From: Acidimicrobiia bacterium
GTDB lineage: Bacteria; Actinomycetota; Acidimicrobiia; Acidimicrobiales; VFJN01
DNA length: 64,000 bases
Assembly (NCBI GenBank): GCA_009694375.1
Contig: SHVB01000015.1
Location: 1-64,000, forward strand
Direction: 5' to 3'
Shown here: positions 33,753-61,073 of the stretch, in pieces
Layout of the letters: every line of letters starts with the position of its first letter
How positions within the stretch are numbered: position 1 is the stretch's first letter
Made by a program: the position numbers and the translations under genes
Notes under the pieces: generated by a model
Database searches by the model: none
What the model was told of the DNA's origin: nothing
The model's input: only the letters and a program-made list of their open reading frames with translations

Positions 33753-33754
33753 CC

Positions 33755-35634: not shown

Positions 35635-35718
35635 CGCCTTCCCCGCTTCTGTGCTTCGTGGGCTCCCTCAGTTCGGCCTCGGTGTTGGTGGGCCACTACG
35701 TTGCACAAAGCACCCCCC

Positions 35719-35731
35719 GACCCTTCGGGTC
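35719..35731 (+). terminator. short hairpin in the nuoD-nuoE gap
   Basis: GACCC (35719-35723) and GGGTC (35727-35731) with a TTC loop. It may slow or partly end transcription from the upstream promoter before the nuoE promoter region. Confidence 0.3.
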
Positions 35732-35745
35732 TTCCCTATACGGAC

Positions 35746-35763
35746 TTGTGCAAGGATTCACAA
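35746..35763 (+). promoter_or_regulatory. candidate Rex operator directly in front of nuoE
   Basis: TTGTGCAAGGATTCACAA matches the Rex consensus at 13 of 14 defined positions. It ends two bases before the nuoE ATG (35766), inside the 131-base gap after nuoD. The free central bases AGGA also form the only plausible ribosome site (AAGGA 35752-35756, 9 bases from the ATG). TATACG at 35737-35742 could be a weak -10 for an internal promoter. Confidence 0.7.
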
Positions 35764-35765
35764 AG

Positions 35766-42845: not shown

Positions 42846-43159
42846 TCGCCATCGCTCAGGTCACCCCTGTGTGGTATCTCATCCTCGCCTCGGTGGTGTT
42901 CGCTATCGGCGCGGTAGGCCTGTTGGTGCGCCGAAATCCGCTGGTCATGTTCATGTGCGTCGAGTTGATGCTGAACGCCGTGACGCTCACCTTTGTCACG
43001 TTCTCTCGCATGCTCAACGACGTGAACGGGCAGACGGTGGTGGTGTTCGTCCTCGTGGTGGCTGCCGCCGAGGTCGTGGTGGGCCTGGGCATCATCGTGG
43101 CCCTTCTCCGCAAGCAGCCCTCGGCTACCGCCGATGACTTGACGGTTCTGAAGGGATAG
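42842..43159 (+). CDS. nuoK: NADH:quinone oxidoreductase subunit K
   Basis: 105 residues, three helices. VELMLNAVTLTFV contains the conserved glutamate of helix 2, and VAAAEVVVGLGIIVAL that of helix 3. It is the smallest antiporter-like subunit. GTG start. Confidence 0.94.
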   Translation: MIAIAQVTPVWYLILASVVFAIGAVGLLVRRNPLVMFMCVELMLNAVTLTFVTFSRMLNDVNGQTVVVFVLVVAAAEVVVGLGIIVALLRKQPSATADDLTVLKG

Positions 43160-43167
43160 CGGCGTAG

Positions 43168-45054
43168 ATGCTTGATCTCGTGTGGCTCGTCCCGGCGTTG
43201 CCGCTAGCCGGGTTCCTCATCCTGGTGGTTCTGGGTCGTCGGATGGGCGAGCCCGGCGCCGGCTGGCTGGCGACGGCGATGTGTGGCGGGGCTTTCGTGG
43301 CCACGGCCATCGTGTTGGCCGGGATGATCGGCGAGCAGGGAGAGGACCGTCGTCACCTGCTCACCTTGTTCGAGTGGATCAAGGTGGGGGGTTTCCGCGT
43401 TGAGGTGGGCTTCCTGGCTGATCCGCTCTCGATCACGATGGCCCTGTTCATTACGGGCATCGGAACGCTGATCCATCTGTACTCGATCTCCTACATGCAC
43501 GGGGATCCGAAGTTCTCGAAGTTCTTCATCTACATGAACCTCTTTGTGTTCTCGATGCTGATGCTCGTGTTGGGAAGCAACATGCTCGTGACCTTCTTGG
43601 GTTGGGAAGGGGTGGGGGCGTGCTCGTACCTGCTGATCGCGTTCTGGTTCAGCAAGGACGCCAATGCATCGGCGGGCAAGAAAGCCTTCGTGACGAACCG
43701 CATCGGCGACTGGGGCTTCATGTGCGCCATGTTCCTCACCTTCGCCGCGGTGGGTTCGCTGGACTACTCAGTGGTGCTGGAACAGGCGCCCCGCATCGCA
43801 CCCGCCACGGCCACGGCTATCGCGCTTTTGTTGTTCCTGGGCGCGTGCGGCAAGTCGGCCCAGTTGCCGCTCTTCGTGTGGCTGCCCGACGCCATGGCGG
43901 GCCCCACGCCGGTGTCGGCTCTGATCCACGCCGCCACCATGGTGACCGCCGGCGTGTACCTGATGACCCGCGTGAGCCCCATTCTCACGCAGAGCTACGA
44001 CTGGGCGCCGAGCATCATTGCCTGGGTGGGGGTCATCACGGCGCTCTTCGCCGCCACCATCGCGTTGGCCCAGACGGATATCAAAAAGGTGCTGGCCTAT
44101 TCCACCGTGAGCCAACTTGGTTTCATGTTCCTGGCGATTGGCTCCGGCGGCTACGTGGCCGCCATTTTTCACATGATCACCCATGCGTTCTTCAAGGCAT
44201 TGCTCTTCTTGGGGGCCGGCTCGGTCATTCACGGATTGCACGACGAGCAGGACATGCGACGCATGGGCAATCTCAAGAAGTACATGCCGATTACGGCGGC
44301 CACCTTCATCGTGGGGTGGCTGGCCATCGCCGGGGTGCCCCCCTTTGCCGGTTTTTGGTCGAAAGACGAGATTCTTCTGAACGCCTACGAGAAAAACCCG
44401 GCCCTGTGGTTCGTGGGTCTGGTGACGGCGCTTCTCACGGCCTTGTACATGAGCCGTCAGGTGTTCATGGTCTTCTTCGGCGAGGAGCGATGGAGGGACT
44501 CCGACCATGCCGCTGCCCCTGAGCCGCATGAGTCGCCGTGGAAGATGACGCTCCCCCTCGTCGTGCTGGCTGGTCTGGCCACGGTGGCCGGCGCTCTGGA
44601 CTCGCCCTTCGGTAGCCGCTCCGACTTCCTCGAGCGCTGGCTCGAGCCAGTGGTGGGGGAAAACGAGCAAGCGGTCACCGTCGCCACCTCCGCGCAGATC
44701 GGCCTGGGGGTGCTGGCGGTGTTGTGCTCACTAGTGGGTATCGCGGTGGCCTATCGGATCTATTACCAGCGCAAGATGGAGCCGATCGAGCCGGCGATCA
44801 TGGCGGAGGGGTGGAAGTACGACACGTCCATCGCGGCCTTCATGGGGGGACCGGGTCGCAAGGCGTTTGAGGCCACCGCCGCCTTCGATGGCACCGTCAT
44901 CGACGGGGCCGTGAACGGCGTGGCCACGCTGGTGCGCCGCAGTGGGGTGCATCTGCGAAAGGTCCAGAACGGGTTCGTGCGAACGTACGCTCTCGGCGTG
45001 GCGGTGGGTGTGGTGGCCTTGCTGGCCTACTTCCTGTCTCGGGTGACGTTCTGA
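43168..45054 (+). CDS. nuoL: NADH:quinone oxidoreductase subunit L
   Basis: 628 residues, about 16 helices. Antiporter-like proton channel with WEGVGACSYLLIAFW, LPDAMAGPTPVSALIHAATM, DIKKVLAYSTVSQLG and AGVPPFAGFWSKDEIL. The C-terminal part should form the long lateral helix along the membrane arm. Overlaps nuoM by one base. Confidence 0.95.
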   Translation: MLDLVWLVPALPLAGFLILVVLGRRMGEPGAGWLATAMCGGAFVATAIVLAGMIGEQGEDRRHLLTLFEWIKVGGFRVEVGFLADPLSITMALFITGIGTLIHLYSISYMHGDPKFSKFFIYMNLFVFSMLMLVLGSNMLVTFLGWEGVGACSYLLIAFWFSKDANASAGKKAFVTNRIGDWGFMCAMFLTFAAVGSLDYSVVLEQAPRIAPATATAIALLLFLGACGKSAQLPLFVWLPDAMAGPTPVSALIHAATMVTAGVYLMTRVSPILTQSYDWAPSIIAWVGVITALFAATIALAQTDIKKVLAYSTVSQLGFMFLAIGSGGYVAAIFHMITHAFFKALLFLGAGSVIHGLHDEQDMRRMGNLKKYMPITAATFIVGWLAIAGVPPFAGFWSKDEILLNAYEKNPALWFVGLVTALLTALYMSRQVFMVFFGEERWRDSDHAAAPEPHESPWKMTLPLVVLAGLATVAGALDSPFGSRSDFLERWLEPVVGENEQAVTVATSAQIGLGVLAVLCSLVGIAVAYRIYYQRKMEPIEPAIMAEGWKYDTSIAAFMGGPGRKAFEATAAFDGTVIDGAVNGVATLVRRSGVHLRKVQNGFVRTYALGVAVGVVALLAYFLSRVTF

Positions 45055-46823
45055 TGCTCACCACCCTGCTGGCGGAGGTCAGCGCCAACAACGTGGTCAC
45101 CACGCCGTTGACGCAGGCGGTGGTGTTGCCCTTCCTGGGGGCCATCGTCGTGTCGTTGATTCCTCGTGGTCGCGCCGAACTGCATCGGGTGGTGGCCCTG
45201 CTGTTCGCGGTGGCTACCGGTGCGCTCACGCTGGCGTTGTTGGCTGGGTTCGATCGCCAGGACAGCGGGTTCCAGTTCCAGGTTAATCGCGTGTGGATCA
45301 GCGATTTCGGTATTTCGTGGCACCTCGGTATCGACGGTATTTCGTTGTTCCTGGTGGTGCTGTCGGGGTTCCTGTTCCCGCTCGCCATGGTGGCGGTGAC
45401 CCCGGCCCATGACCCCAAGCCCTATTACGCCTGGCTCCTCGTGCTTCAGGGTGGCTGCATCGGGGTGTTCTGTGCGCTCGATCTCTTTGTGTTCTTTGTG
45501 ATGTTCGAGATCGTGCTGGTGCCGATGTACTTCCTCATCCTCGGGTGGGGTTACGCCGACCGCGTGTACGCCGCCTTGAAGTTCTTCATCTTCACGATGT
45601 TCGGCTCGGCGCTCATGCTGGTGGGCATCGTGGCGTTGGCGTTTTTGAACCGAGACGGAGTGGTGGAGGCCAACCAAGCCCGGGTGGCCACCATCCAATC
45701 CGAGATGGCCACGGTGCAGGCCAGCCAGGTGCTCTCCGGGCCCGATACCCCTGTGGACCCAGCCACTGCGGCCAGCCTGGCGGCCGGCGAAGTTCGGATC
45801 GAGCGACTGCTGAACCCGAAGCTCAACTTCGATCTCGTCACCATTGCCGAGAGCCAGACCGTCACGGATACCTCCACCGGGGCCAGTCCCTTCGACTGGG
45901 GGGCGGCTCGGTGGATCTTCCTGGCCTTCGCGTTGGCCTTCGCCGTGAAGGTGCCGCTGTTCCCGCTGCATACGTGGCTTCCCGATGCCCATACGCAGGC
46001 CCCCACGGCGGGATCGGTGATTCTCGCCGGGGTGATGTTGAAGCTGGGGACCTACGGCTTCGTCCGCTTTGGCCTCTACCTGTTGCCGGAACCGTCGGTC
46101 TTTTTTGCCCCTGCGCTCGTGACGCTGGGGGTCATCGGCATCATCTACGGCGCCGTGGTGGCCACGATGCAGAAAGATCTCAAACGTCTGGTGGCCTATT
46201 CGTCGGTGGCCCATCTTGGGTTCATCATCCTGGGCATTTTCGCTCTCACCACGGTGAGCATCGAGGGCGGCGTGGTGCAGATGTTCAACCACGGAATTTC
46301 CACCGGCGCCCTCTTTTTGTTGGTGGGGATGATTTACGAACGCCGTCACACCCGTGACATCTCCTCCCTCAAGGGCTTGCAGAAATCGGCACCGATCCTC
46401 GCCGCCGTTTTCACCCTCGTCATGCTGAGTTCGATCGGTCTGCCTGGTCTCAACGGATTCGTGGGTGAGTTCCTTATCCTCGTCGGGTCGTTCCTCACCC
46501 GGCGATGGTTCACCGTGGTGGCCGCCGCCGGGGTTGTGTTGGCGGCGCTCTACCTCCTTTGGGCTTTCCAGCGGGTGTTTCACGGCGAACCGGATGAGGA
46601 AAACGCCGATATGGCCGACATGAACTGGCGGGAGGGCCTGGTAATGGCTCCCTTGCTGGTGCTCATCGTGTTCCTGGGGGTGTACCCGAAGCCGATGCTC
46701 GACCGTATCGAGCCGGCCGTCGCCCGTCTGGTGAGCCACGTGGAGAATTACTCCGACTACACCGAGCCGGCCGTGGCCACTAGGGGGGTGGGCGTTGACG
46801 CCCCCGACGAGGATGGTGAGTGA
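45054..46823 (+). CDS. nuoM: NADH:quinone oxidoreductase subunit M
   Basis: 589 residues, about 14 helices, proton-translocating antiporter-like subunit. GIDGISLFLVVLSGFL, FEIVLVPMYFLIL, LPDAHTQAPTAGSVILAGVM and DLKRLVAYSSVAHLGF are diagnostic. A hydrophilic insertion of about 65 residues after helix 5 (from VVEANQARVATIQ to TSTGASPFDW) makes it longer than the second NuoM of the window (517 residues). Confidence 0.95.
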   Translation: MLTTLLAEVSANNVVTTPLTQAVVLPFLGAIVVSLIPRGRAELHRVVALLFAVATGALTLALLAGFDRQDSGFQFQVNRVWISDFGISWHLGIDGISLFLVVLSGFLFPLAMVAVTPAHDPKPYYAWLLVLQGGCIGVFCALDLFVFFVMFEIVLVPMYFLILGWGYADRVYAALKFFIFTMFGSALMLVGIVALAFLNRDGVVEANQARVATIQSEMATVQASQVLSGPDTPVDPATAASLAAGEVRIERLLNPKLNFDLVTIAESQTVTDTSTGASPFDWGAARWIFLAFALAFAVKVPLFPLHTWLPDAHTQAPTAGSVILAGVMLKLGTYGFVRFGLYLLPEPSVFFAPALVTLGVIGIIYGAVVATMQKDLKRLVAYSSVAHLGFIILGIFALTTVSIEGGVVQMFNHGISTGALFLLVGMIYERRHTRDISSLKGLQKSAPILAAVFTLVMLSSIGLPGLNGFVGEFLILVGSFLTRRWFTVVAAAGVVLAALYLLWAFQRVFHGEPDEENADMADMNWREGLVMAPLLVLIVFLGVYPKPMLDRIEPAVARLVSHVENYSDYTEPAVATRGVGVDAPDEDGE

Positions 46824-48409
46824 TGCTGGCCAGCCTCTGGCAACAAATCCTCGACAGTCCCGTGCCGATCGACACCGTCGACCTGGCCTGGTCTGGTTTG
46901 GCTCCGATCATGATCCTCATCGGGGGTGCGCTGCTGATCCTGGCGGTGGATTCCCTCGTGCCGCGTCAGCTGCGAGCGGGGAGTTATGCCCTGGCTACCG
47001 TGCTCCTGGCGGCGAGCGCGATGGCGGCGGCGGTCCCGCTGTGGCAACGAGTTCAGGACGCCGAGCGCGGCCCGTTCTCGGCGGCGGCGGGTGCCATCGT
47101 GGTCGACGGGTTTTCGGTTTTCGCTACGTTCGTGATCCTCTCGGCGGTGATCCTGGCCGCCTTGTCCTTTGACGGCTGGCTGCGACGGGAGGAGATGGAC
47201 GGTGCCGAGCCCTACGTGCTCATGCTGCTGTCGGCCTCGGGTGGCGTGATGATGGCATCGGCCAACGATCTCATCGTGATGTTCCTCGGTCTCGAGATCC
47301 TGTCGATTGCCGTGTACGTGCTGGCGGCGATGCACTTGCGCAAGATCACCTCGCAGGAAGCGGGGGTGAAGTACTTCGTGCTGGGGGCCTTTTCGTCGGC
47401 CTTTTTCCTCTACGGCATTGCCCTTATTTACGGTGGCACCGGGTCGACCAACCTCGTCCACATCTCGAACTATCTGTCCGCCACGGTTCTGGGCGATAGC
47501 GGCCTGGTGCTGGCTGGTTTGGCACTGCTGCTGGTGGGCTTTGGCTTCAAAGTGGCCGCTGCCCCGTTCCACTTTTGGGCGCCTGACGTGTACCAGGGTG
47601 CCCCCACGCCGAGTGTGGCTTGGATGGCCAGTGGGGTGAAGGTGGCGGCGTTTGCCGGCCTGCTGCGAGTCTTCTACCTGGCCTTTTCCACCTATCGGCT
47701 CGACTGGCAGCCCGTGATCTTTGTGTTGGCGGTCCTCACCATGCTGGTGGGTTCGGTGTTGGCGGTGGTTCAGACCGATGTGAAGCGCATGTTGGCGTAC
47801 TCGTCGATCAACCATGCTGGCTTCATTCTGGTGGCCGTGCAGGCGGCTACCGCCGCCGGTGTGCAAGCCGCTCTCTTCTATCTGGCCGCCTACACATTCA
47901 TGGTGGCGGGCAGTTTCGGCGTGATCGCAGTGGTGAGCCGCAAGGGCGACATCGGCACGAGCCTGGATGATTACCGGGGGTTGTCGCGTGATCGACCCGC
48001 GTTGGCGTTCGCCTTTGCGGTGCTCCTCCTCGCCCAGGCGGGCGTGCCACTCACCTCGGGTTTCTTCGCCAAGTTCTACGTGATCACCGCGGCCATCGAG
48101 GCGGGTTCCTCCACCCTGGCGATCATCGCCATGGTCACGGCGGTGATCTCGTCCTACGTCTATCTCCGCATCATCGTGGCGATGTACGTGGCCGGTGATG
48201 ACGTCCCGGCGCCCCGTACGATTCCACTGCCCGCCGCCGCTGGGTTGGCGCTGGTGGTGAGCCTCACGGTGACCATGAGCGTGGGCGTCTTCCCGGGCAC
48301 CCTGGCCTCCCTTGCCGAACACGCCACGCCCGTGTTGATTCAGGAGTCCGTTCCGGCGGCGGTGGATCCGGCGGCGGTCGATCCCAGCAGCGTTCCGCCC
48401 GGCCCCTGA
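46823..48409 (+). CDS. nuoN: NADH:quinone oxidoreductase subunit N
   Basis: 528 residues, about 14 helices. LGLEILSIAVYVLAAM, FHFWAPDVYQGAPTP, DVKRMLAYSSINHAGF and AGVPLTSGFFAKFYVI mark NuoN. ATG 46823 overlaps the nuoM stop; a GTG one codon earlier is equally possible. It ends the first complex I operon. The tail is a valine/proline-rich stretch. Confidence 0.95.
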   Translation: MLASLWQQILDSPVPIDTVDLAWSGLAPIMILIGGALLILAVDSLVPRQLRAGSYALATVLLAASAMAAAVPLWQRVQDAERGPFSAAAGAIVVDGFSVFATFVILSAVILAALSFDGWLRREEMDGAEPYVLMLLSASGGVMMASANDLIVMFLGLEILSIAVYVLAAMHLRKITSQEAGVKYFVLGAFSSAFFLYGIALIYGGTGSTNLVHISNYLSATVLGDSGLVLAGLALLLVGFGFKVAAAPFHFWAPDVYQGAPTPSVAWMASGVKVAAFAGLLRVFYLAFSTYRLDWQPVIFVLAVLTMLVGSVLAVVQTDVKRMLAYSSINHAGFILVAVQAATAAGVQAALFYLAAYTFMVAGSFGVIAVVSRKGDIGTSLDDYRGLSRDRPALAFAFAVLLLAQAGVPLTSGFFAKFYVITAAIEAGSSTLAIIAMVTAVISSYVYLRIIVAMYVAGDDVPAPRTIPLPAAAGLALVVSLTVTMSVGVFPGTLASLAEHATPVLIQESVPAAVDPAAVDPSSVPPGP

Positions 48410-49513: not shown

Positions 49514-49879
49514 GTGTCTGACTTCCTCCGCGACTACCTCACGGTAGGCATTTTTGGTCTCACTGGGGTGGCACTGGTGGGCTTACTTCTCGGCCTCGGA
49601 AGCCTGTTGCGGCCCACCCGCCCGCAGCCTCAGAAATACATCAACTACGAGTCCGGGGTGGATCCGGTGGGCACGGGTTGGGGACAGAGCAACGTCCGCT
49701 ACTACATCTTTGCTCTCCTCTTCGTCATGTTCGATGTGGAAGCCGTATTCATCTTCCCCTTCGCCACTCGCGTGGATGCCTACGGGTGGTTCGGCCTGAT
49801 CGAAATGGGCATCTTCATCGTTGTGTTGGCCTTGGGCCTTCTCTACGCCTGGAAGAAGAAGGTCCTGCGATGGGTATGA
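49514..49879 (+). CDS. nuoA2: complex I subunit A of the second operon
   Basis: 121 residues, three helices. [20 protein letters not shown] replaces the usual YECG loop: the loop cysteine is serine. [24 protein letters not shown] is a clear NuoA helix 2. Shorter C-terminal tail than the first copy. GTG start 8 bases after a -10 box, so probably leaderless. First gene of an eleven-subunit operon without E, F and G. Confidence 0.93.
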
Positions 49880-49898
49880 GCAAGAGGGTGGAGGGCTG

Positions 49899-50414
49899 AT
49901 GGGCCTCGTCGAGAGCGGCAAGATGCCCAAGCCGCTGACCAAACTGTTGAACCTCAGCCGCAAGTACTCCATTTGGGCGTACCAGTGGGGTCTTGCCTGT
50001 TGTGCCATCGAAATGGGGGCCGCCTTTGCGTCGCCGCGCTACGACGTGATGCGCCTCGGGGTGATCCCGTTCCCGGCCAGCCCTCGCCAGGCCGACCTCG
50101 TGGTGATCTCGGGAACGGTTACCGACAAGATCGTGCCGGCCATCAAGCGCCTCTATGAGCAGATGCCCGACCCGAAGTACGTCATCTCCATGGGCAGTTG
50201 CACGAACTGCGGCGGCCCGTACTGGGATAGTTATTCCGTCACGAAGGGTGTCGACCAGATCATCCCCGTCGATGTGTACGTCCCTGGTTGCCCGCCCCGT
50301 CCCGAAGCTCTGCTCGAAGGTGTCGTGTTGTTACAGGAACGGATCCAGAACGAAGATATGGCAGCGCGCTGGAGGGGTGAGCAGGACCGCCAGGAGCCGA
50401 TCATCGTTGGCTGA
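49899..50414 (+). CDS. nuoB2: complex I subunit B of the second operon
   Basis: 171 residues. Cluster N2 ligands are intact: [24 protein letters not shown] and [15 protein letters not shown] 49899 has GAGGG before it. Clearly different from the first NuoB, so not a recent duplicate. The last bases contain the likely TTG start of nuoC2. Confidence 0.95.
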
Positions 50415-51093
50415 GGACACCGCCACCGCGTCGGCGGAGGCTCCCGAGATCGTGGTCGACGAGCGCCGCGAGGAGTTGCGGGCCGTGTTCGTCGCGCACC
50501 TGGGCGATGCGGTGCTCGACAGCGTCATCAAACCCGGTGACGGTTTGTGGATTCGCGTGGCTACCGACGCGTGGGCCGAGGCGGGCCGCGTAGCCCAGGA
50601 CAAGGCGGACTGTAAATATTTCGACTTCCTCTCGGCAATCGATTGGTTGCCGTCGCCCTACGGGCGCTACGAAGACTCCGCCCTTGATGTGCCCTTCCCT
50701 CCGCCGATGCCGGAGCGTTCGGCGGCAGTGCCGGGGTACGCAGGGGGCGAGTCTCGGCTGCAGGTTCTGGCATCGGTGGCGAAAACCGGAACCGACCTGC
50801 GCGTGTTGCTGAAGGTTGATGTGCCCGACGACGATCCGCGCCTGGCCACCTGGATTCGCACCTATGCCGGGGCGGCTTGGCATGAGCGGGAGACGCACGA
50901 GATGTTCGGGATCTCCTTCGATGGCAACGCCGACATGCGGAACCTCTACCTGCCCTCTGAGTTTGAGGGCTATCCGCTGCGCAAGGAGTTCCCTCTGCTC
51001 GCTCGGGTTGTGAAGCCCTGGCCCGGGATTATTGATGTTGAACCCATGCCGGGCGACGACGAGTCGTCCGAGGGGGAAGGGACCGAAGAATGA
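50407..51093 (+). CDS. nuoC2: complex I subunit C of the second operon (TTG start)
   Basis: 228 residues. The 30 kDa signature is [19 protein letters not shown] followed by [20 protein letters not shown]. It differs from the first copy by a longer insert after the first beta strands. The start is inferred: TTG 50407 overlaps the nuoB2 stop by eight bases and has GGAG 10 bases upstream; no ATG or closer GTG fits the operon spacing. Confidence 0.85.
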
Positions 51094-52262
51094 CACTCAC
51101 CGATGCCCAGCAACTCGGCTACATCAACGCGCAGGCCGCCGACGGCCGCGTGAACGTCGAGCTCGAGACCGATGACGGCATGGTCCTCAACATGGGGCCC
51201 CAACATCCCGCTACCCACGGCACTCTGCGCCTGGTGGCCCGCCTCGACGGGGAGCAGGTGACCTCCGCCGATGTGATGTGCGGCTACATGCATCGTGGCT
51301 ACGAGAAGCTGTGCGAGGTTCGCTCGTACCCGCAGGTCACCACGTTGGTGAACCGAATCGACTGGCTGGGCAGCTTTGCCAACGAGGTGCCCTTCATCCT
51401 GGCCGCCGAGCAGTTGATGGAGGTTGAAGCTCCGCCGCGAGCGCAGTGGATTCGCACTTTGCTCTTCGAGCTCTCCCGCATCGCCAACGTCAGCCTCTTC
51501 ATCGGTGACCTCGCCTTGCAGCTCGGTGCCCAAACTCCCGCTTTCTATGCCTTCCGCGACCGCGAGTTCGTGCTCAATCAGATCGAGTCGGTCACCGGAG
51601 GGCGTTTCCACCCCAACTTCGACCGCATTGGCGGCCTCAAAGACGACCTCCCGAAGGGGTGGATCGCCGAGACCAAAGCTGCCATGGTGCGCCTACGGGC
51701 GTTCTGTGACGAGATGGAAGGCCTTGTCTACGGCAACGAGATCTTCCAATCTCGTACTCGTGGGGTGGGGGTTATTCCGGCCGCGGTGGCGCAGTCCTAC
51801 GGGTTGAGTGGCGCCAATCTGCGGGGCTCAGGCGTGGACTGGGATCTCCGCCGTGATGCCAATGTGGGGCTGGTCTATGACCAACTGGATTGGAAGGTCT
51901 GGACCCACCCCGACGGCGACAGTTACTCGCGTTGTTGGGTGCGGCTGCAGGAAGTGCGGGAAGCCACCAAAATTGTCGACCAGATCTGCGATGGCCTGCC
52001 CAGCGGGGCCATCATGGCCAAGGTGCCGCGCATCATCAAGGTGCCGGCCGGGGAGGCGTACATTGCCACGGAGAATCCGCTCGGCCAGATGGGCTACTAC
52101 GTGGTGTCCAAGGGCGACACCGGCCCGTTCCGAGTAAAGATCCGCTCGGCGAGTTTCAACAACATCTCCATCGCCCCGTGGCTCCTGCGCGGCGTCTACG
52201 TGCCCGACATCATCACGATTCTCGCCAGCCTCTACTTCATTCTGGGAGATATTGACCGATGA
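51090..52262 (+). CDS. nuoD2: complex I subunit D of the second operon
   Basis: 390 residues. MGPQHPATHGTLRLVARL has the quinone-site histidine. R69 (GYMHRGYEKL) is at the position of the arginine that NDUFAF7 methylates in mitochondrial NDUFS2; the first NuoD has threonine there. A MidA/NDUFAF7-like gene ends this same operon. Also present are PPRAQWIRTLLFELSRIANV and FRVKIRSASFNNI. Overlaps its neighbours by four bases each. Confidence 0.95.
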   Translation: MTLTDAQQLGYINAQAADGRVNVELETDDGMVLNMGPQHPATHGTLRLVARLDGEQVTSADVMCGYMHRGYEKLCEVRSYPQVTTLVNRIDWLGSFANEVPFILAAEQLMEVEAPPRAQWIRTLLFELSRIANVSLFIGDLALQLGAQTPAFYAFRDREFVLNQIESVTGGRFHPNFDRIGGLKDDLPKGWIAETKAAMVRLRAFCDEMEGLVYGNEIFQSRTRGVGVIPAAVAQSYGLSGANLRGSGVDWDLRRDANVGLVYDQLDWKVWTHPDGDSYSRCWVRLQEVREATKIVDQICDGLPSGAIMAKVPRIIKVPAGEAYIATENPLGQMGYYVVSKGDTGPFRVKIRSASFNNISIAPWLLRGVYVPDIITILASLYFILGDIDR

Positions 52263-53299
52263 TTTCTTTGTCGGTGCTGGGGGTGGAGCTTGCCTATTGG
52301 CAGGTCACCTCGCTGCGCGTGCTCGGGGTGCTGTTGGCGGTGGTCCTGCCGGCCGGAGCGTTTGTCTATCTCTTTCTGTTCAAGATGATGAGTTTCATGC
52401 AGAGCCGCCTGGGTCCGATGGAAGCAGGGCCGTTTGGCTCGATGCAGCTCCTCGCCGAGGTCGGCAAGTTCCTACAGAAGGAAGACATCGTTCCCGAGCG
52501 GGCCGACCGGCGGCTTTTTTTCATCGCTCCGTACGTCGTGCTGGCGAGCACGTTCCTGCTCTTTTCGGTGATGCCCTTCGGCCCGGACGTCTACTTCACC
52601 AACCTCGATACGGGCGTCTTCTTGGCCCTCGGGCTCTCGTCAGTTTCGGTGATCGGCATTCTGATCGCGGGGTGGGCTTCGGCCAACAAGTACTCCCTCA
52701 TCGGCGGTATCCGGGCGGCGGGGCAGCTCATTGCCTACGAGCTGCCGATGGTGCTCGCCGTGGTGGGAGTGGTCATCCAGGCCGGCACGCTGAACCTCCA
52801 AGGGATCGTGGCCGCCCAACATCAAGGCGAGATCTTCGGTTTCTCCGGCATCGGTAACCCCTTTTTGCTCACTCAGTTCGTGGCCTTCGGGGTGTTCTTG
52901 GTGGCCACCCAGGCCGAGCTCACCCAGACGCCCTTTGACATGCCCGTGGCGGAGTCGGAGATTGTCACGGGCTACATGACTGAGTATTCCGGTCTGCGCT
53001 TCCTACTTTTTTTCATCGGTGAGTTCGCCACTGCCGGGGCGTTCGCCGCCATTGCCGCCACGCTGTTCCTGGGCGGGTGGGCGTTGCCCTTCGTCTCCCT
53101 TGAAGACAACGCGATGAACTTCATTGGCCCGCTGGTGCTCTTCGCAAAGATGCTCATGGTGGGCTTCCTCATTTTCTGGGCTCGCTTCACGTTCCCCCGA
53201 TTCCGGGAGGACCAGCTCCAGGCCTTTGCCTGGAAATACCTGATTCCCATCGCGCTGGTCAACATCCTGGTCACCATGATTCTGAAGGTGGCGTTCTAG
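52259..53299 (+). CDS. nuoH2: complex I subunit H of the second operon
   Basis: 346 residues, about eight helices. MQSRLGPMEAGPFGSMQLLA and QTPFDMPVAESEIVTGYMTE are the quinone-channel signatures; the glutamates are kept. Shorter than the first copy by its lack of a tail and one loop insert. Overlaps nuoD2 by four bases. Confidence 0.94.
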   Translation: MISLSVLGVELAYWQVTSLRVLGVLLAVVLPAGAFVYLFLFKMMSFMQSRLGPMEAGPFGSMQLLAEVGKFLQKEDIVPERADRRLFFIAPYVVLASTFLLFSVMPFGPDVYFTNLDTGVFLALGLSSVSVIGILIAGWASANKYSLIGGIRAAGQLIAYELPMVLAVVGVVIQAGTLNLQGIVAAQHQGEIFGFSGIGNPFLLTQFVAFGVFLVATQAELTQTPFDMPVAESEIVTGYMTEYSGLRFLLFFIGEFATAGAFAAIAATLFLGGWALPFVSLEDNAMNFIGPLVLFAKMLMVGFLIFWARFTFPRFREDQLQAFAWKYLIPIALVNILVTMILKVAF

Positions 53300-53851
53300 G
53301 TGCCCATTCCGAAGCCGCGGCTACCCGGTCTGTTCACCGGCCTCACGATCACCCTCAAGGAACTTCTGAAGACGCTGTTCCCCCGGCGGGGTATCCGCAC
53401 GCTGATCCCCGCCCCTTCCCTCGGGGCGGTCACCGTGCAGTACCCCCACGAGAGTGAGACGCCGGCCCCTCGGGCCCGGGGGGTCATCGCCCTCAAGGAG
53501 GAGAACTGCACCGCCTGCATGTTGTGCTCGCGCAGTTGCCCGGATTGGTGTATCTACATTGAGGGCCATAAGACCAAAGCCCCTCCGCGTCGACCGGGCG
53601 GCAAGGAACGTACGGTCAGCGCCCTCGACCGCTTTGATATCGATTACGCGCTTTGTATGTACTGCGGAATCTGCGTTGAGGTCTGCCCGTTCGATGCCCT
53701 GTTTTGGAGCCCGGAATACGAGTACTCCGAGCCCCGACTGGCCGATCTCCTCCACGACATGGACCGTCTGACCGAGTGGATGGAGACGGTGCCGGACTTC
53801 GAGCCCTACGAAGCGGGTTCGGATGCCAAGGTGCGAAAGGTGCCGCGCTAA
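53300..53851 (+). CDS. nuoI2: complex I subunit I of the second operon
   Basis: 183 residues. [16 protein letters not shown] and [16 protein letters not shown] hold two [4Fe-4S] clusters. In the absence of NuoG, NuoI and NuoB form the whole iron-sulfur wire, so an outside donor would have to dock here. GTG start immediately after the nuoH2 stop. Confidence 0.93.
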
Positions 53852-54366
53852 TGGTGGCGCAGAACGTCTTCTTCTATCTGTTCGCGGGCATCATCTTGTT
53901 CAGCGCGTTCCGAGTAGTCACCTCGAACAACGTGGTGCATGCCGCCCTCTACCTTGTCGCCGTGTTGGCCGCGGTAGCGGCGGAGTATGTGCTGCTGGCC
54001 GCCGAGTTCGTGGCGGCCACGCAGGTCCTGGTGTACATCGGCGCCATCATCGTGCTGTTTCTTTTCGGCATCATGCTCACCCGGGCCAAGCTGGGTAGCG
54101 ATCAGGACCTCACCCACCCCCATTGGGCCCTCAGCGCCGCCACGGCCGTGTTGATGTTCGGGGTGATGAGCTATGCCTTGGTCGATCAGTTTCACTGGAC
54201 CGCCACGCCCCTGCCGGCCGACACAAGGCTGATCTTGGTGGCCGGGTCGAACAGCGCCACGGTGAGCGACTCAGTGTTTACCGCCTATCTCGTACCGTTC
54301 GAGGTCGTTTCGGTGCTCCTCCTGGCGGCCCTCGTGGGCGCCATTGTCCTGGCTCGGAAGGACTGA
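53851..54366 (+). CDS. nuoJ2: complex I subunit J of the second operon
   Basis: 171 residues, five helices. QVLVYIGAIIVLFLFGIMLT is the helix 3 motif. ATG overlaps the nuoI2 stop by one base. No glycine/proline-rich loop as in the first NuoJ. Confidence 0.93.
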   Translation: MVAQNVFFYLFAGIILFSAFRVVTSNNVVHAALYLVAVLAAVAAEYVLLAAEFVAATQVLVYIGAIIVLFLFGIMLTRAKLGSDQDLTHPHWALSAATAVLMFGVMSYALVDQFHWTATPLPADTRLILVAGSNSATVSDSVFTAYLVPFEVVSVLLLAALVGAIVLARKD

Positions 54367-54368
54367 CC

Positions 54369-54677
54369 GTGGACGATCTGCTCCTCAACCAGTTCTTGCT
54401 CCTCGGTGCGGTGCTCTTTTGCATCGGCGTGTACGGGGTGCTGGCTCGGCGTAATGCAGTGTTGGTGCTCATGTCGATCGAGTTGATCCTGAATGCCGTC
54501 AACATCAACCTCATCGCTTTCGGGGCCTTCTGGGGTTCGATCACAGGGTCGGTCTTCGCGCTCTTCGTCATCGCCATCGCGGCGGCCGAGGTTGGGGTCG
54601 GGTTGGCCATCGTCCTGCTCATCTATCGCAACCGCCGGAGCGTCGACCTCGACGACGTGGCTGAGATGAAGGGGTAG
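54369..54677 (+). CDS. nuoK2: complex I subunit K of the second operon
   Basis: 102 residues, three helices with MSIELILNAVNINLI and IAAAEVGVGLAIVLLI holding the two conserved glutamates. GTG start 2 bases after the nuoJ2 stop. Confidence 0.93.
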   Translation: MDDLLLNQFLLLGAVLFCIGVYGVLARRNAVLVLMSIELILNAVNINLIAFGAFWGSITGSVFALFVIAIAAAEVGVGLAIVLLIYRNRRSVDLDDVAEMKG

Positions 54678-54688
54678 GGCTGACCACC

Positions 54689-56842
54689 ATGTGGTTCCCC
54701 GACCATGCCTACCTGATTCCGCTGATCGCGGCGGCTTCGTTCGTGCTCATCTTGCTGTTTGGCAAGCGGATGCCCAAGAAGGGTGCCGAGATCGGCATCA
54801 CGGCGCTGAGTATCTGCTTCGTGATGGCGCTGGCCACCAACGTCCAATGGTTCTCGCACGTCAATTCGGCCGAGCATGAGGCCGAAGTGGCCCAGGAGGA
54901 GGGCGAGGCATCCGGGGCGGTGGTGGAGTCGGAATCCACCGGGTCGGCTACCGAGCCCATCGAGTTTGAGGTGGAACCGTCGCGGGCCAGTTGGACCTGG
55001 TGGCAGAGCGGCGACGTGACCTTCAGCGTGGGTATGTTGCTCGACGGCCCAGGGGTGATGATGCTCTTCGTCGTCACCCTGATCTCGTTGTTGGTGCACA
55101 TCTACAGCACCGACTACATCGGAGGCGACCGGCGTTACACCCATTACTTCGCCTTCCTGTCGCTGTTCAGCGCGTCAATGCTCGGTCTGGTCATGAGCGA
55201 GACCACCCTCCAGCTCCTCACCTGCTGGGAACTGGTGGGGCTCTGTTCTTTTGCGCTGATCGGCCACTGGTGGGAGGAAAAGCCGAATTCCGACGCGGCC
55301 CTCAAGGCGTTCATCACCAACCGCGTGGGCGACGTGGGCCTCATCTGCGGTGTGATCATCCTCTTCTTTGCCGCCGATCAGAGTTTCGACATCGTGACGA
55401 TCAACGAGATGGCCCTCAACGGCGAGATCAGCCACCTCGCCTTGCTGGTGGCATCCTGCTCGCTCATGGCGGCGGTCATGTCCAAGTCCGGACAGTTCGT
55501 CTTGCACACCTGGCTCCCCGACGCCATGGCCGGCCCCACGCCGGTTTCGGCGCTCATCCACGCCGCCACCATGGTGGTAGCGGGCGTGTTCATGGTGGCG
55601 CGCCTCTATGGCGTGTTCTTCCAGGGATTCTCTATCGGTACGTCATCGGTGAATCCGCTGGCGGTGATCGGTGCCATCACGGTGATCGGCGGAGCGAGCC
55701 TCGCCTTCGTGCAGAAGGACATCAAGAAGGTGTTGGCCTACTCCACGGTCTCCCAACTCGGGTACATGGTGATGGCGCTTGGGGTGGGGGCCTGGACCGC
55801 CGCTCTGTTCCATCTCTTCACGCACGCCATGTTCAAGGCGGGGCTCTTCCTGGGGGCCGGCTCGGTGGCTCACTCCGTGCACTCCTTCGACATGACCGAG
55901 CACATGGGGGGTATGCGAAAGTTCATGCCCAAGACCTTCGTGACCTTCCTCATCTGCACGGCTGCGCTCATCGGCCTGTTCCCGTTGGCAGGGTTCTGGT
56001 CGAAGGACGAGGTCCTCTCGGGGGCCCAGCAACTCGGTGGCGAGGGCGGCTATCTGGCCTTCATGGTGGTGGGCCTGGTTGGAGCCTTTCTCACGTCGCT
56101 CTACATGACCCGTTGCATCTACCTGACGTTCTTCGGAGAGGCGAAAGGACATGCCGCCGACGCCGAACACCCGCCGCATGAATCAGGGCGACGCATTCTG
56201 GTTCCCCTGTACATCCTCAGCGGCATGGCGATCATCACCGGCTTCGCCAACCTTCCCAATTCGGGGGTGCTCTCCGGTTCCCCCGATGGGGCCTCGTTGC
56301 GTTTCGAGCACTTCTACGAGCCGAAGGGGTCCTATTTCCCGGCCGTCTTCGAAACGTTCGACCACCCCGAGTTCAACGTGCTCATCGCTCTTGGGTCCAC
56401 GGTCATCGGGTTACTCGGAATCAGCCTGGCCTACGCCTGGTACTGGAAGGGCCGCGGACCCCACGGTCTCACCAGTCGCAACAAGTTCGCCAAGGCCGGA
56501 TACACGGTGCTGGTGGAGAAGTACTACCTCGATCATCTCTACACCGGGATCATCGTGGGCGCGGTGAAGGGGCCGATCGCCCATGGTGCTTACTGGTTCA
56601 ACCAGAAGGGGATCGATGGTGTGGTCAACGGCGCCGGGGTGGCCGCTGTGAAGAGCGGCAAGTTCGTGTACGAGCGCATCGATCAGGGTGTGGTCGACAC
56701 GATTGTCAACGCCTCCGGAAGTGCCGCAGGTGGTAGTGGTCAACGTCTACGCAGAATCCAAACCGGGCGGGTACAGCAATACGCCGCCCTCCTTTTTGCC
56801 GGTGCCGCCATCCTGGCCGGCATTTTCATCATCGTCATCTAG
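54689..56842 (+). CDS. nuoL2: complex I subunit L of the second operon
   Basis: 717 residues, longer than the first NuoL (628). WELVGLCSFALIGHWWE, LPDAMAGPTPVSALIHAATM, DIKKVLAYSTVSQLGYM and GFWSKDEVLSGAQQLGG are conserved. The extra length lies in a glutamate/serine-rich external loop after helix 2 (VAQEEGEASGAVVESESTGS) and in the C-terminal region. Lateral helix present. Confidence 0.94.
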   Translation: MWFPDHAYLIPLIAAASFVLILLFGKRMPKKGAEIGITALSICFVMALATNVQWFSHVNSAEHEAEVAQEEGEASGAVVESESTGSATEPIEFEVEPSRASWTWWQSGDVTFSVGMLLDGPGVMMLFVVTLISLLVHIYSTDYIGGDRRYTHYFAFLSLFSASMLGLVMSETTLQLLTCWELVGLCSFALIGHWWEEKPNSDAALKAFITNRVGDVGLICGVIILFFAADQSFDIVTINEMALNGEISHLALLVASCSLMAAVMSKSGQFVLHTWLPDAMAGPTPVSALIHAATMVVAGVFMVARLYGVFFQGFSIGTSSVNPLAVIGAITVIGGASLAFVQKDIKKVLAYSTVSQLGYMVMALGVGAWTAALFHLFTHAMFKAGLFLGAGSVAHSVHSFDMTEHMGGMRKFMPKTFVTFLICTAALIGLFPLAGFWSKDEVLSGAQQLGGEGGYLAFMVVGLVGAFLTSLYMTRCIYLTFFGEAKGHAADAEHPPHESGRRILVPLYILSGMAIITGFANLPNSGVLSGSPDGASLRFEHFYEPKGSYFPAVFETFDHPEFNVLIALGSTVIGLLGISLAYAWYWKGRGPHGLTSRNKFAKAGYTVLVEKYYLDHLYTGIIVGAVKGPIAHGAYWFNQKGIDGVVNGAGVAAVKSGKFVYERIDQGVVDTIVNASGSAAGGSGQRLRRIQTGRVQQYAALLFAGAAILAGIFIIVI

Positions 56843-56872
56843 CCGAGCGCAATCCGAGGACCGAACGGGACC

Positions 56873-58426
56873 ATGGACAACAACGAATTCCTCACCGAAT
56901 GGGGCCTGACCCTCATGGTTTTCCTGCCGCTGGCGGGGGCGCTATTGCTGATGGTCATCCCAAAGGCCCAAGAGCAGATGATCAAGGTCGCCGCCTTGGG
57001 AGCGGCGCTGGCCTCGGGGGCGGTGGGGGTCGCCGTGTTGGCGAACTTCAACTACGACACCTCGGAAAAGCTGCAGTTCGTGGTGAACCGCAACTGGATC
57101 GAGGTCATCCACGCCAATTACATCGTGGGCATTGACGGGCTCTCGGTGCCGCTGATCGCTCTCACGCTCCTGATCACCCCGCTCGTGATGGTCTACAGCT
57201 GGAATCACTTCCCGGAACCCCACAATCCCAAGGCGTTCCTGATCCTGATGCTCATTCTGGCCACTGGGATGCTCGGTACCTTCGTGGCCCAGGACCTCAT
57301 CCTCTTCTTCGTCTTCTTCGAGGTGGTACTGCTCCCGATGTACTTCATGATCGGGGTGTGGGGGGGCGAGCAACGCCAGTACGCCTCCATCAAGTTCTTC
57401 CTCTACACGTTGTTTGGCTCTGCCCTCATGATCGTCAGTTTCCTGGCCCTGTTTTTTGTGGCCGGTGGCGACAGTTTCTCGATGGTGGATCTGGCCCAAG
57501 GGGTGGCTGATCGCAACGCCGCGGGAAACCTGGCGATGATCACCCAGGTGCTGATCTTCGGCGGCATGTTTATGGGGTTTGGCATCAAGGTGCCGATGTT
57601 CCCCTTCCATACCTGGCTCCCCGACGCCCACACCCAGGCGCCCACCGCCGGCTCGGTCATCCTGGCGGCGGTGCTCTTGAAACTCGGCACCTACGGATTC
57701 ATCCGGGTGGCGCTGTTCATTCTCCCGGAGGCCGCCGTGAAGTGGGCCCCGTACATCGGCGCCCTGGCGGTGATCGGGATCATCTATGGAGCGTTGGGCT
57801 GTCTCGCGCAGACGGACATGAAGCGGCTGATCGCGTTCTCGTCAGTGGCGCACATGGGTTTCGTGATGCTCGGCATCGCCAGCCTCACCACCTTCGGTCT
57901 GAACGCGGCGGTGTTCGGCATGGTCGCCCACGGCCTCATCACCGGCATGTTGTTCTTCCTGGCCGGCTCGGTGAAGGACCGCTTCCACACACTGGAGATC
58001 AAGCGCCTTGGTGGGCTCTTGCTGCAGGCGCCGAAACTCGGTTGGATTCTTGGCTTCTGCATCATGGCCTCGCTGGGCCTGCCCGGTTTGGCAGGGTTCT
58101 GGGGCGAATTCCCGGCCATTCTCTCGGCCTACAACCCGGCGCCGGCCCTGTCGCAGGAACTGTTCCGCACCTACATGGTGATCGCCGCCTTCGGCACTGT
58201 GCTGGCGGCGGGCTACTTGCTGTGGCTCTTCCAACGCACGGCCTTTGGTACCCCCAGCGAGGAGTTTGCCGACGTCGAAATCGAGGATGTGCGGGTGAGT
58301 GAGTGGATTGCCTGGGTCCCGTTGCTGGCGCTGATCCTGGTGCTGGGTCTGTTCCCGAACATCATCTTCCACGTCACCGATCCTTTCCTGACGGTGATGG
58401 GCAACACCTTTGCGGGACTGAAGTAA
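56873..58426 (+). CDS. nuoM2: complex I subunit M of the second operon
   Basis: 517 residues, about 14 helices. GIDGLSVPLIALTLLITPL, FEVVLLPMYFMIGVWGG, LPDAHTQAPTAGSVILAAVL and DMKRLIAFSSVAHMGFVML are diagnostic. It lacks the hydrophilic insert of the first NuoM. A 30-base gap separates it from nuoL2. Confidence 0.95.
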   Translation: MDNNEFLTEWGLTLMVFLPLAGALLLMVIPKAQEQMIKVAALGAALASGAVGVAVLANFNYDTSEKLQFVVNRNWIEVIHANYIVGIDGLSVPLIALTLLITPLVMVYSWNHFPEPHNPKAFLILMLILATGMLGTFVAQDLILFFVFFEVVLLPMYFMIGVWGGEQRQYASIKFFLYTLFGSALMIVSFLALFFVAGGDSFSMVDLAQGVADRNAAGNLAMITQVLIFGGMFMGFGIKVPMFPFHTWLPDAHTQAPTAGSVILAAVLLKLGTYGFIRVALFILPEAAVKWAPYIGALAVIGIIYGALGCLAQTDMKRLIAFSSVAHMGFVMLGIASLTTFGLNAAVFGMVAHGLITGMLFFLAGSVKDRFHTLEIKRLGGLLLQAPKLGWILGFCIMASLGLPGLAGFWGEFPAILSAYNPAPALSQELFRTYMVIAAFGTVLAAGYLLWLFQRTAFGTPSEEFADVEIEDVRVSEWIAWVPLLALILVLGLFPNIIFHVTDPFLTVMGNTFAGLK

Positions 58427-58432
58427 CTGCTC

Positions 58433-59947
58433 GTGTTCGCATTTCTTCTCCAGTCGGTGGCCTCCACCTTCGACCGGCCCGCCATCGACTTCCACGCGCT
58501 AGCGCCCGAGTTGGTGCTCACGGGCGCCCTCGTGGTGGTGCTGCTGGTCGACCTTTTCACGCCGAAGGGCTCACGTGGCATCGTGCCCTCGGTGGCCGGA
58601 ATCGGCATTCTGGCGGCCATGGTGCCGGTGCTCACCCTGGCGCTGGATGGGGCCGACCGGTCGATGTTTGGTGGGGCCTACGTCGTAGACAACTTCTCCT
58701 TGGTGCTGCAGGCGATGTTCCTACTGGCGGCCTATGTAGTGGTCTTGCTGTCAACCAACTACATCGCCGAGGGCGACTACGCGGAGGGCGAGTACTACTT
58801 CCTTTTGTTGTGTGCGCTCCTCGGCATGCTGGTGATGGCGTCATCGCGCGACCTCATCACGATGTTTGTGGCGCTCGAACTCCTGTCGATCCCGGCCTAC
58901 ATGCTCGCCGGCTGGCGTAAGCGCGACCGGCGCGGCAACGAAGCCGGGGTGAAGTACTACCTGATGGGCGTGTTCGCTTCGGCGGTGACGCTCTACGGCA
59001 TGTCCTTGCTCTACGGGATTTCCGGGAGCACGCTCTTTACCGACATCGCCGTGGCGGTGGCTCGGGGCAATGGGTTTGGCGATACAACACCGCTCATTAC
59101 CCTCGGGGTGGTCTTTGTGTTGGTTGGCTTCGCCTTCAAGGTGTCGGCGGTGCCGTTCCACACGTGGGCACCCGACACCTATGAGGGTGCCCCCACGCCG
59201 GTTACCGCCTTCCTGGCGGTGAGTTCGAAGGCAGCCGGCTTCGTGGCCCTCCTGCAACTCATCCTCATCGCGTTTATCGGGCGTGACGATGTGGTGGGGC
59301 CCCTCATGTGGGTGCTGGCTGCGTTGACGATGACGGTGGGGAACCTCATTGCGCTGCGTCAGACGAATATTGTCCGCATGCTCGCCTACTCCGGGGTAGC
59401 CCAAGCCGGTTTCATGCTCGCCCCATTGGCGGTGGTGGGAAGCAACTCCGATGGTGCCCGCAGCGCCGTGGTGACCTACCTGCTGATCTATGCCGCCATG
59501 AACCTGGGGGCCTTCGCTGTAGTGCTCATCGTGGCCCGCAAGACCCGCAGCGCGGAGATCGCCTCGTGGGGTGGTCTCTTTGAGTACGCCCCGGGCCTGA
59601 CGGTGCTGATGACGGTGTTTCTCTTCAGCCTGGCGGGCATCCCGCCGCTCGGGGGCTGGCTGGCGAAGTTCGTGGTGTTCCGGGCGCTTCTTTCCCCCGA
59701 TCTCACGGCAGGGGGAGTAATCCTGGCGGTGGTCGTCGGGGTGAACTCGGTGATCGCCCTCTACTACTACGCCAACGTCGCCCGACAAATGTGGATGAAT
59801 CCGGTGCCCGACGGCGACCGCACCCCGGTGCGCATCCCGTTTTCACTGGCCGCCGCCGTCACCCTCTCGTTGGTGCTCACCGTCGCCTTCGGGGTGAGCA
59901 ACCTGGCGACCCGCCTCGGCGACCTCGCGACCTTCCTCCCGGCGTAA
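58433..59947 (+). CDS. nuoN2: complex I subunit N of the second operon
   Basis: 504 residues, about 14 helices. FVALELLSIPAYMLAGW, FHTWAPDTYEGAPTP, NIVRMLAYSGVAQAGFML and AGIPPLGGWLAKFVVF are conserved. In the third motif the usual lysine of antiporter helix is replaced (NIVRML instead of DVKRML). GTG start 6 bases after nuoM2. Confidence 0.94.
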   Translation: MFAFLLQSVASTFDRPAIDFHALAPELVLTGALVVVLLVDLFTPKGSRGIVPSVAGIGILAAMVPVLTLALDGADRSMFGGAYVVDNFSLVLQAMFLLAAYVVVLLSTNYIAEGDYAEGEYYFLLLCALLGMLVMASSRDLITMFVALELLSIPAYMLAGWRKRDRRGNEAGVKYYLMGVFASAVTLYGMSLLYGISGSTLFTDIAVAVARGNGFGDTTPLITLGVVFVLVGFAFKVSAVPFHTWAPDTYEGAPTPVTAFLAVSSKAAGFVALLQLILIAFIGRDDVVGPLMWVLAALTMTVGNLIALRQTNIVRMLAYSGVAQAGFMLAPLAVVGSNSDGARSAVVTYLLIYAAMNLGAFAVVLIVARKTRSAEIASWGGLFEYAPGLTVLMTVFLFSLAGIPPLGGWLAKFVVFRALLSPDLTAGGVILAVVVGVNSVIALYYYANVARQMWMNPVPDGDRTPVRIPFSLAAAVTLSLVLTVAFGVSNLATRLGDLATFLPA

Positions 59948-59951
59948 TGCG

Positions 59952-61073
59952 GTGGCGGCGCCAGTGACGCCGGCCGAAGCGCGGGTCCGAGCGGAGATCG
60001 CTCGGCGAGGCCCGATCCCTTTTGAAGAGGTAGTCGAGATCGCGCTCTACGATCCGGCGGGTGGGTTTTACGCCACCGGTGGCGCCGCCGGCCGACGCGG
60101 CGATTTCCTCACCAGCCCTGAGGTGGGTCCACTGTTCGGAGCGGTCGTGGCCGCCGCCCTTGACCGTTGGTGGGCCGAGGCCGCCTGCCCCTCGCGGTTC
60201 GCGGTAGTGGAGGCAGGTGCGGGCACCGGTGCGCTCGCCCGCAGCATCCTGGCCGCGCAGCCAGCCTGCGCCGCCGCCTTGCGCTACGTCCTGGTGGAGC
60301 GATCCGACATCCAGCGCATCGGCCACGCCCGGCATCTTGCCCTCGAGGACCCCGCCGCCGCCTTCGCGTCCGCCCCCGAAGCGGATGAGGACCGCCAAGA
60401 CATCGCCGCCCTCCTGCCGGTGGGGCCGATCGTCGTCAGCATGGCCGACCTCCCGAGATTGCCGGGCCCGGTCATCGTCTTGGCCAACGAACTGCTCGAC
60501 AACCTTCCCTTCGGCCTGACCGAGCGCACCGCCGATGGATGGGCCGAAGTACGGGTGGGTATCACTGATGATCGCCTGGTCGAGGTGCTTGTCCCCGTGG
60601 GCGCTGGTGCACTTCCTGAGGCGCCGGTGGGAGCGCGGGTGCCGACCCTTCGGGCGGCGGTGAGGTGGGTACGCGAGGCCCGGGAACTGGCCGGATCCGG
60701 TGGGCGCGTCGTGGCCTTCGACTACGCATCGACCCTCGGTAGCCTGGCGGCCCGTCCCTGGACAGAATGGGTGCGTACCTACCGCCAGCACGCCAGGGGT
60801 GGGTCACCGTTGGAAGGGCTCGGAACCCAGGACATCACCTGCGAGGTCCCCGTCGATGCCCTCACCCCGTCGCCGTTGGTGTCCACCCAGGCCGATTGGT
60901 TGGAGCGGAACGGGCTCGACGATCTCGTTGCCGAAGCCCGAGCCCTTTGGCAGGAGCGGGCGGCGATCGGCGACCTCGCCGCTCTGCGAGCCCGCAGCCG
61001 CATCTCGGAGGCGCTTGCGCTCGTGGACCCGACCGGCCTGGGGGCGTTTCGCGTGCTTGAGTGGCAGACCTAA
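59952..61073 (+). CDS. MidA/NDUFAF7-family SAM-dependent methyltransferase
   Basis: 373 residues. GPIPFEEVVEIALYDPAGGFY and GDFLTSPEVGPLFG are the family's N-terminal signature, VVEAGAGTGALARSIL is the SAM-binding glycine loop, and VIVLANELLDNLPFGL is a further hallmark. In mitochondria NDUFAF7 dimethylates an arginine of NDUFS2 early in complex I assembly. Here the gene starts 4 bases after nuoN2, so it belongs to the second complex I operon, and NuoD2 has the corresponding arginine. I infer a NuoD2 arginine methyltransferase. GTG start. It converges on an enoyl-CoA hydratase gene with 4 bases between stops. Confidence 0.87.
   Translation: MAAPVTPAEARVRAEIARRGPIPFEEVVEIALYDPAGGFYATGGAAGRRGDFLTSPEVGPLFGAVVAAALDRWWAEAACPSRFAVVEAGAGTGALARSILAAQPACAAALRYVLVERSDIQRIGHARHLALEDPAAAFASAPEADEDRQDIAALLPVGPIVVSMADLPRLPGPVIVLANELLDNLPFGLTERTADGWAEVRVGITDDRLVEVLVPVGAGALPEAPVGARVPTLRAAVRWVREARELAGSGGRVVAFDYASTLGSLAARPWTEWVRTYRQHARGGSPLEGLGTQDITCEVPVDALTPSPLVSTQADWLERNGLDDLVAEARALWQERAAIGDLAALRARSRISEALALVDPTGLGAFRVLEWQT

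Follow-up and report, generated by a model that had tools for sequence, protein, structure and literature searches.

A MidA/NDUFAF7-family methyltransferase gene accompanies the NuoD-arginine form of complex I in Actinomycetota

Two complex I gene sets and one methyltransferase gene

The window, by which we mean the whole 64,000-nt stretch of DNA analyzed here, lies within a 2.58 Mb actinobacterial assembly and carries two sets of complex I genes, nuo1 and nuo2 (Table 1), the second of which is followed by midA, a gene for a predicted methyltransferase. Among named genomes the nearest midA locus is in an Actinomycetota MAG, followed by Candidatus Microthrix, and the window is close to Acidimicrobiia. 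The nuo1 subunits except D, and nuo2 subunits A, H, J, K, L, and M, were assigned by order and ORF sequence.

Table 1. Complex I operons of the window, their nuoB and nuoD genes, and midA
Feature	Coordinates	Strand	Description
nuo1 operon	32698..48409	+	A, B, C, D, E, F, G, H, I, J, K, L, M, N; 14-subunit type
nuoB1	33177..33752	+	Arg80 at the switch position (AGRVSQK); corresponds to T. thermophilus Nqo6 Arg83
nuoD1	34297..35634	+	Thr-type NuoD, Thr98 (LHTGMEK)
nuo2 operon	49514..59947	+	A, B, C, D, H, I, J, K, L, M, N, without E, F, G; 11-subunit type
nuoB2	49899..50414	+	Switch residue Thr (SGTVTDK), numbered Thr73 from ATG 49899
nuoD2	51090..52262	+	Arg-type NuoD; Arg69 (MHRGYEK) aligned with NDUFS2 Arg85; Trp92 in place of the quinone-binding Tyr
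midA	59952..61073	+	SAM-dependent methyltransferase of the MidA/NDUFAF7/COG1565 family, predicted to act on a NuoD arginine

The midA gene and its predicted product

A sequence-only reading of the window had placed a methyltransferase gene 4 bases behind nuoN2, and the ORF, read from a GTG start and encoding 373 aa, does begin 4 bases past the nuoN2 stop. By sequence matching and modeled fold, its product is a MidA/NDUFAF7-family methyltransferase. It matches Pfam PF02636 (Methyltransf_28) with E = 2e-23 and a score of 83.6 bits (curated cut-off 23.3), and no other match to PF02636 occurs in the assembly; no NCBIfam match to the protein was found. Its PDB sequence relatives are 1zkd, 4f3n, and 5ztz, the last titled 'Protein arginine methyltransferase NDUFAF7 homolog, mitochondrial'. 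The predicted model has a pLDDT of 87.4 and a pTM of 0.86, and its six best Foldseek matches are all MidA/COG1565 structures, namely 1zkd (two chains), 5zu0, 4g67, 5ztz, and 4f3n, with E <= 4.4e-21, while the seventh is already at E = 2.4e-4. Ten PDB fold matches have E <= 0.001, the last four, far weaker, being small-molecule or peptide methyltransferase entries.

The window protein has 29-42% identity to the 15 other family members with which it was aligned. Residues E179, D182, T53, D256, Y257, D293, and Q312 (alignment numbering) are invariant in 16/16 aligned members, and the SAM-site glycines at 88, 90, and 92 of the same numbering, in a GxGxG-like arrangement, are found in the window protein. 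We take the glutamate, aspartate, and glycine positions (GxGxG-like, NExxD) to be the key motifs of the MidA family.

The fold matches also bear on the idea of MidA as a methyltransferase for DNA, or of general action, placed in the nuo2 operon by chance. In its favor, Wolbachia MidA expressed in E. coli is reported to methylate adenine and cytosine, a result that its authors call preliminary (PMC12455994). The top six of the 10 matches being MidA/COG1565, with the weaker four small-molecule or peptide methyltransferases, speaks against this idea, which also does not predict the co-occurrence and linkage with Arg-type NuoD given below; we hold it very improbable.

An arginine switch between NuoD and NuoB

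Arg69 of NuoD2 aligns without gaps to the HTG column of T. thermophilus Nqo4 and to the HRG column of the mitochondrial 49-kDa subunit, and the identity of the NDUFS2 Arg85 and T. thermophilus Thr64 column is also supported by statements in PMC3750175, PMC3829151, and PMC8042128. The alignment and these papers agree with the earlier placement of R69 of NuoD2 and T98 of NuoD1 at the NDUFS2 methylation position. Absent from that reading was the complementary residue in NuoB, Arg80 in NuoB1 and Thr in NuoB2. According to Hameedi and colleagues (PMC8042128), the T. thermophilus residues are Thr in NuoD and Arg83 in NuoB, and the NuoD and NuoB arginines occupy the same space beside cluster N2. The window has both states of this published 'intersubunit arginine switch': a Thermus-type state, NuoD Thr with NuoB Arg, in NuoD1 Thr98 with NuoB1 Arg80, and a mitochondrial-type state, NuoD Arg in an HRGxE motif with NuoB Thr, in NuoD2 Arg69 with NuoB2 Thr73. 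This one bacterium has two versions of complex I with the key arginine on different subunits, and midA goes with the version that has it at the mitochondrial position, that is, with the NuoD-Arg form of the switch.

Among the matches listed from 198 Actinomycetota genomes, 115 NuoD/NuoB operon pairs were readable, 62 of them Thr/Arg and 53 Arg/Thr with 0 conflicts, so that pairs with two arginines or none number 0/115. For this count 137 NuoB rows were used and 13 listed rows with no matching NuoD were omitted, one guessed Thr entry (G065) was taken out, and in G081 and G093 NuoD was positioned close to the PF00346 match. E. coli is in the Arg/Thr state. It has been proposed in PMC8042128 that the NuoB position of the arginine may reflect assembly in thermophiles; across Actinomycetota, an ordinary bacterial phylum, NuoB-Arg is the usual state of Thr-type enzymes and is not limited to thermophiles.

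Two variants were seen around these positions. Family f56 (L130, L131) has a NuoB Trp (AGWCS) opposite the NuoD Arg, a third NuoB state that is again not two arginines. In L102, L105, L106, and others (f38, f41, f72, f75), HRA (or HRAFDK) replaces HRG after the switch histidine, with the arginine retained.

Co-occurrence of midA with Arg-type NuoD

The sequence-only reading had offered co-occurrence of the gene with arginine rather than threonine NuoD as a check on itself, and the result is in its favor. The 198 genomes, taken evenly from Actinomycetota, were scored for PF02636 matches and for an Arg-type NuoD sequence pattern, giving 64 with both, 27 with Arg-type NuoD only, 2 with MidA only, and 105 with neither, the classes scored as Arg-negative taking in genomes that lack complex I. 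Counted by family (n = 55), the same classes hold 24, 8, 0, and 23. Arg-type NuoD is therefore found in 64/66 genomes with midA, and midA in 2/107 genomes where Arg-type was not detected; set against the 64/91 Arg-type genomes that have midA is 1/26 for genomes in which only Thr-type NuoD was detected. The two MidA-only genomes are G121, where only Thr-type NuoD was found, and G206, where NuoD was not found and the assembly is 83% complete. With this table and the 80 named loci described below, the pairing of midA with Arg-type NuoD is real and beyond chance.

Left out of the count were G110:C4 and G061:C158, which are not NuoD, second copies in G160, G193, and G213, and an HRSKEK type in G159, G192, G201, and G170:C433. 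Because the HRSKEK type was left out, G159, G192, and G201 are counted as having neither; were it retained they would have Arg-type NuoD and no MidA. Two of the 26 'Thr only' genomes, G043 and G058, encode a Thr-type NuoB at another locus and may therefore hold a nuo2 whose NuoD went unrecognized. An apparent 'Thr-only with MidA' group, comprising seven Streptomyces-like genomes with G069, G091, and G114, was rejected as an artefact of a narrow pattern that missed R-H-D and HRA motifs; reading the loci of G053, G199, G091, G114, and G069 together with a broader pattern gave Arg-type NuoD in every genome of the group. The Streptomyces-like genomes are family f49, which we presume to be such from genome size and gene content.

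The earlier suggestion that MidA acts on the NuoD of this operon type is partly supported, in that co-occurrence and linkage follow the Arg-type, but not in its restriction to the nuo2 type with the tryptophan described below, since midA also occurs in genomes with Arg-type NuoDs outside that clade (G032, G048, G059, G062, G072, G208, G214). In two genomes, G087 (f32) and G168 (f61), Arg-type NuoD and MidA are both missing, while relatives in the same families have both. As a separate observation, contig C498 of G170 (f42) has an Acidimicrobiia-like nuoD2 and midA together, the sole MidA match in that family within the sample, and this cassette may come from contamination or transfer.

Linkage of midA to nuoD2

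Within 25 kb or less of midA there is an Arg-type NuoD in 37/66 genomes and a Thr-type in 1 (G046, in which the Arg-type is closer). Both NuoD types are on the midA contig in 14 genomes, with the Arg-type closer in 14/14. A scan of named genomes retained 80 loci, all Acidimicrobiia-like, and midA is immediately after nuoN2 in 71/78 of those testable; where residues were readable, NuoD has Arg in 44/44 and NuoB has Thr in 16/16.

The Streptomyces-like genomes and their kin have a different arrangement. Five of the 6 nuo2 clusters fetched from them consist of A, B, C, and H-N without D, and the sixth (L225) of A, B, C, and I only. The displaced nuoD2 of the Streptomyces-like genomes (L092-L095, L221-L226) is beside midA, 1.4-8.5 kb apart, and in the five genomes with nuoD2 and nuoB2 on one contig those two are separated by 129-224 kb, as in G053 (nuoD2, 4.978 Mb; nuoB2, 5.177 Mb). 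In f38, f72, and f75, nuoD2 and midA are neighbors with no further nuo2 genes inside the fetched stretch. Of all the observations, this attachment of midA to nuoD2 and not to the operon points most strongly to NuoD2 as the partner of MidA.

Arginine without midA, and the single change on the NuoD tree

Genomes with Arg-type NuoD and no PF02636 match number 27/91 and are concentrated in f40, f69, f70, parts of f41, and others. A divergent MidA was sought in these near nuo2 and genome-wide with a 16-sequence profile, and only the broken pieces in G052 were found; counting that copy lowers the number to 26. Weak partial matches to the profile in G160, G193, G211, and G213 covered 97 positions or fewer and were set aside as generic SAM-domain similarity. 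In G052 both NuoD2 (L122) and MidA (C1:1406122-1407067) are frame-shifted or broken, through joint decay or assembly error. The nuo2 contig of G174 stops within nuoH2, so a lost downstream part could explain the missing midA. Arginine evidently functions without MidA in some lineages, given these 27/91, as it does in E. coli, where the Arg is present and is reported in PMC3750175 to be unmodified.

A quickly built NuoD tree (100 rows) places the Thr-type in a single clade (SH-aLRT 99) and requires one Arg/Thr change, so that arginine and lineage are inseparable within Actinomycetota and the 198 genomes fall well short of being independent trials. This bears on two other accounts of the pairing. 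MidA could be a nuo2 assembly factor whose target is a different site or subunit, or a chaperone that transfers no methyl group, with the link to arginine coming from the nuo2 lineage; the single change, by which residue and lineage are confounded, and the retention of Arg without MidA in 27/91 genomes would both fit. Such a factor is at odds with midA staying with nuoD2, and not with the remaining nuo2 genes, once nuoD2 has quit the operon, with the occurrence of midA in the seven genomes noted above whose Arg-type NuoDs are not of the nuo2 type, and with reports of action on the same residue by the relatives from human and Dictyostelium (PMC3829151, PMC9006661), and we judge it unlikely.

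The other account is that a single nuo2-midA cassette was passed on vertically and that the co-occurrence is uninformative on function, which would agree with the single-clade structure of the tree and with all 80 named-genome loci being Acidimicrobiia-like. A single cassette accords poorly with the clade-to-clade variation in gene order around midA (behind nuoN2, convergent with a solitary nuoD2, or on separate contigs) against a constant partner residue, and with the joint absence in G087 and G168 that sets them apart from other members of their families. We regard it as distinctly improbable, less likely than an assembly factor with another target.

A tryptophan at the quinone site of nuo2 NuoD

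NuoD2 has Trp92 (51363-51365) at the position of the quinone-binding Tyr, T. thermophilus Tyr87. Both are 23 residues past the switch residue, as is Yarrowia Tyr144 after Arg121. Of the quinone-site pair, NuoD2 retains the His (His43) with Trp92, and NuoD1 has Tyr. Counting distinct segments and excluding the frame-shifted L122, Trp is found in 80 Arg-type nuo2 NuoDs, and Tyr in 10 other Arg-type NuoDs (including E. coli) and in 33 Thr-type. The replacement of the quinone-binding Tyr by Trp in nuo2-type NuoDs is possibly a larger finding than the midA pairing.

Proposed role of MidA

From the observed family and fold of the product, the order, co-occurrence, and linkage of the gene, and the complementarity of NuoB with NuoD, a substrate, product, timing, and assembly role may be proposed for the midA protein. 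By analogy with NDUFAF7 on NDUFS2, the enzyme most likely dimethylates Arg69 of NuoD2 no later than the encounter of NuoD2 with NuoB2 and the setting of cluster N2. On this reading complex I requires one arginine next to cluster N2, supplied across the subunit interface by NuoD in nuo2, mitochondria, and E. coli, and by NuoB, the subunit holding the cluster, in nuo1 and Thermus. MidA accompanies only the NuoD-supplied form, and most likely dimethylates Arg69 on free or early NuoD2, after which the modified side chain would extend across to the N2 cluster of NuoB2. The product, again by analogy, would be symmetric dimethylarginine, and the timing follows the human order of methylation events as described in PMC3829151 and PMC8042128. 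Where the arginine is on NuoB, N2's own subunit, there would be no such partner, and no MidA. It is possible, and we offer it tentatively, that nuo2 is a rebuilt complex I, with a MidA-methylated NuoD arginine and Trp for the quinone Tyr giving it acceptor chemistry unlike that of nuo1, and that the subunit bearing the N2 arginine decides methyltransferase use across bacteria.

This system bears on the question of why the arginine is dimethylated in mitochondria. In the arginine mutants reported in PMC8042128, loss of N2 prevented different effects from being separated. A pair of complex I enzymes of which only one has a methylatable arginine, together with natural Arg lineages that have no MidA, provides internal controls for the question, and since Streptomyces-like genomes seem to share the arrangement, it may be open to genetics.

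Comparison with known systems

Dimethylation of Arg85 has been reported in bovine, human, Pichia, and Paracoccus complex I (PMC3750175), and the enzyme making the mark is described as NDUFAF7 (PMC3829151). An alphaproteobacterial version of the MidA-NuoD idea is already published (PMC9006661), and PMC12455994 describes the role of MidA in prokaryotes as so far inferred in silico only. In the literature searched on bacterial MidA/NDUFAF7 with NuoD or its operon, we found no account of the Actinomycetota pairing, nor mass spectrometry or an assay for any actinobacterium. As the related enzymes and the modified site of Paracoccus are published, the present finding extends known biology.

With NDUFAF7 and Dictyostelium MidA (PF02636, COG1565; 5ztz, 5zu0), the window protein, known from sequence and a model, shares the family, the predicted fold (TM 0.79 by query), the N-E-x-x-D and glycine motifs, and a tie to the 49-kDa/NuoD subunit; aligned by structure, the two are about 21% identical. 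It differs in being bacterial, in being encoded in or beside a complex I gene set, and in having a host with two complex I types. Paracoccus denitrificans complex I is likewise bacterial, and its Nqo4 arginine is reported as dimethylated (PMC3750175; Arg65 density, PMC11522691), as is predicted here for NuoD2, but it is a 14-subunit, alphaproteobacterial enzyme, unlike nuo2. The 11-subunit complex I-like enzymes such as that of Desulfitobacterium (PMC11238625) lack NuoEFG as nuo2 does, whereas nuo2 ends in midA and has Trp at the quinone-tyrosine position. The switch described between T. thermophilus and Yarrowia (PMC8042128) has the same two states, NuoD Thr with NuoB Arg and NuoD Arg with NuoB Thr, with one state reported per organism, whereas the window has both about 17 kb apart in one genome. 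Beyond that description, the switch holds in 115/115 listed operon pairs of one phylum and is tied to the presence of a methyltransferase.
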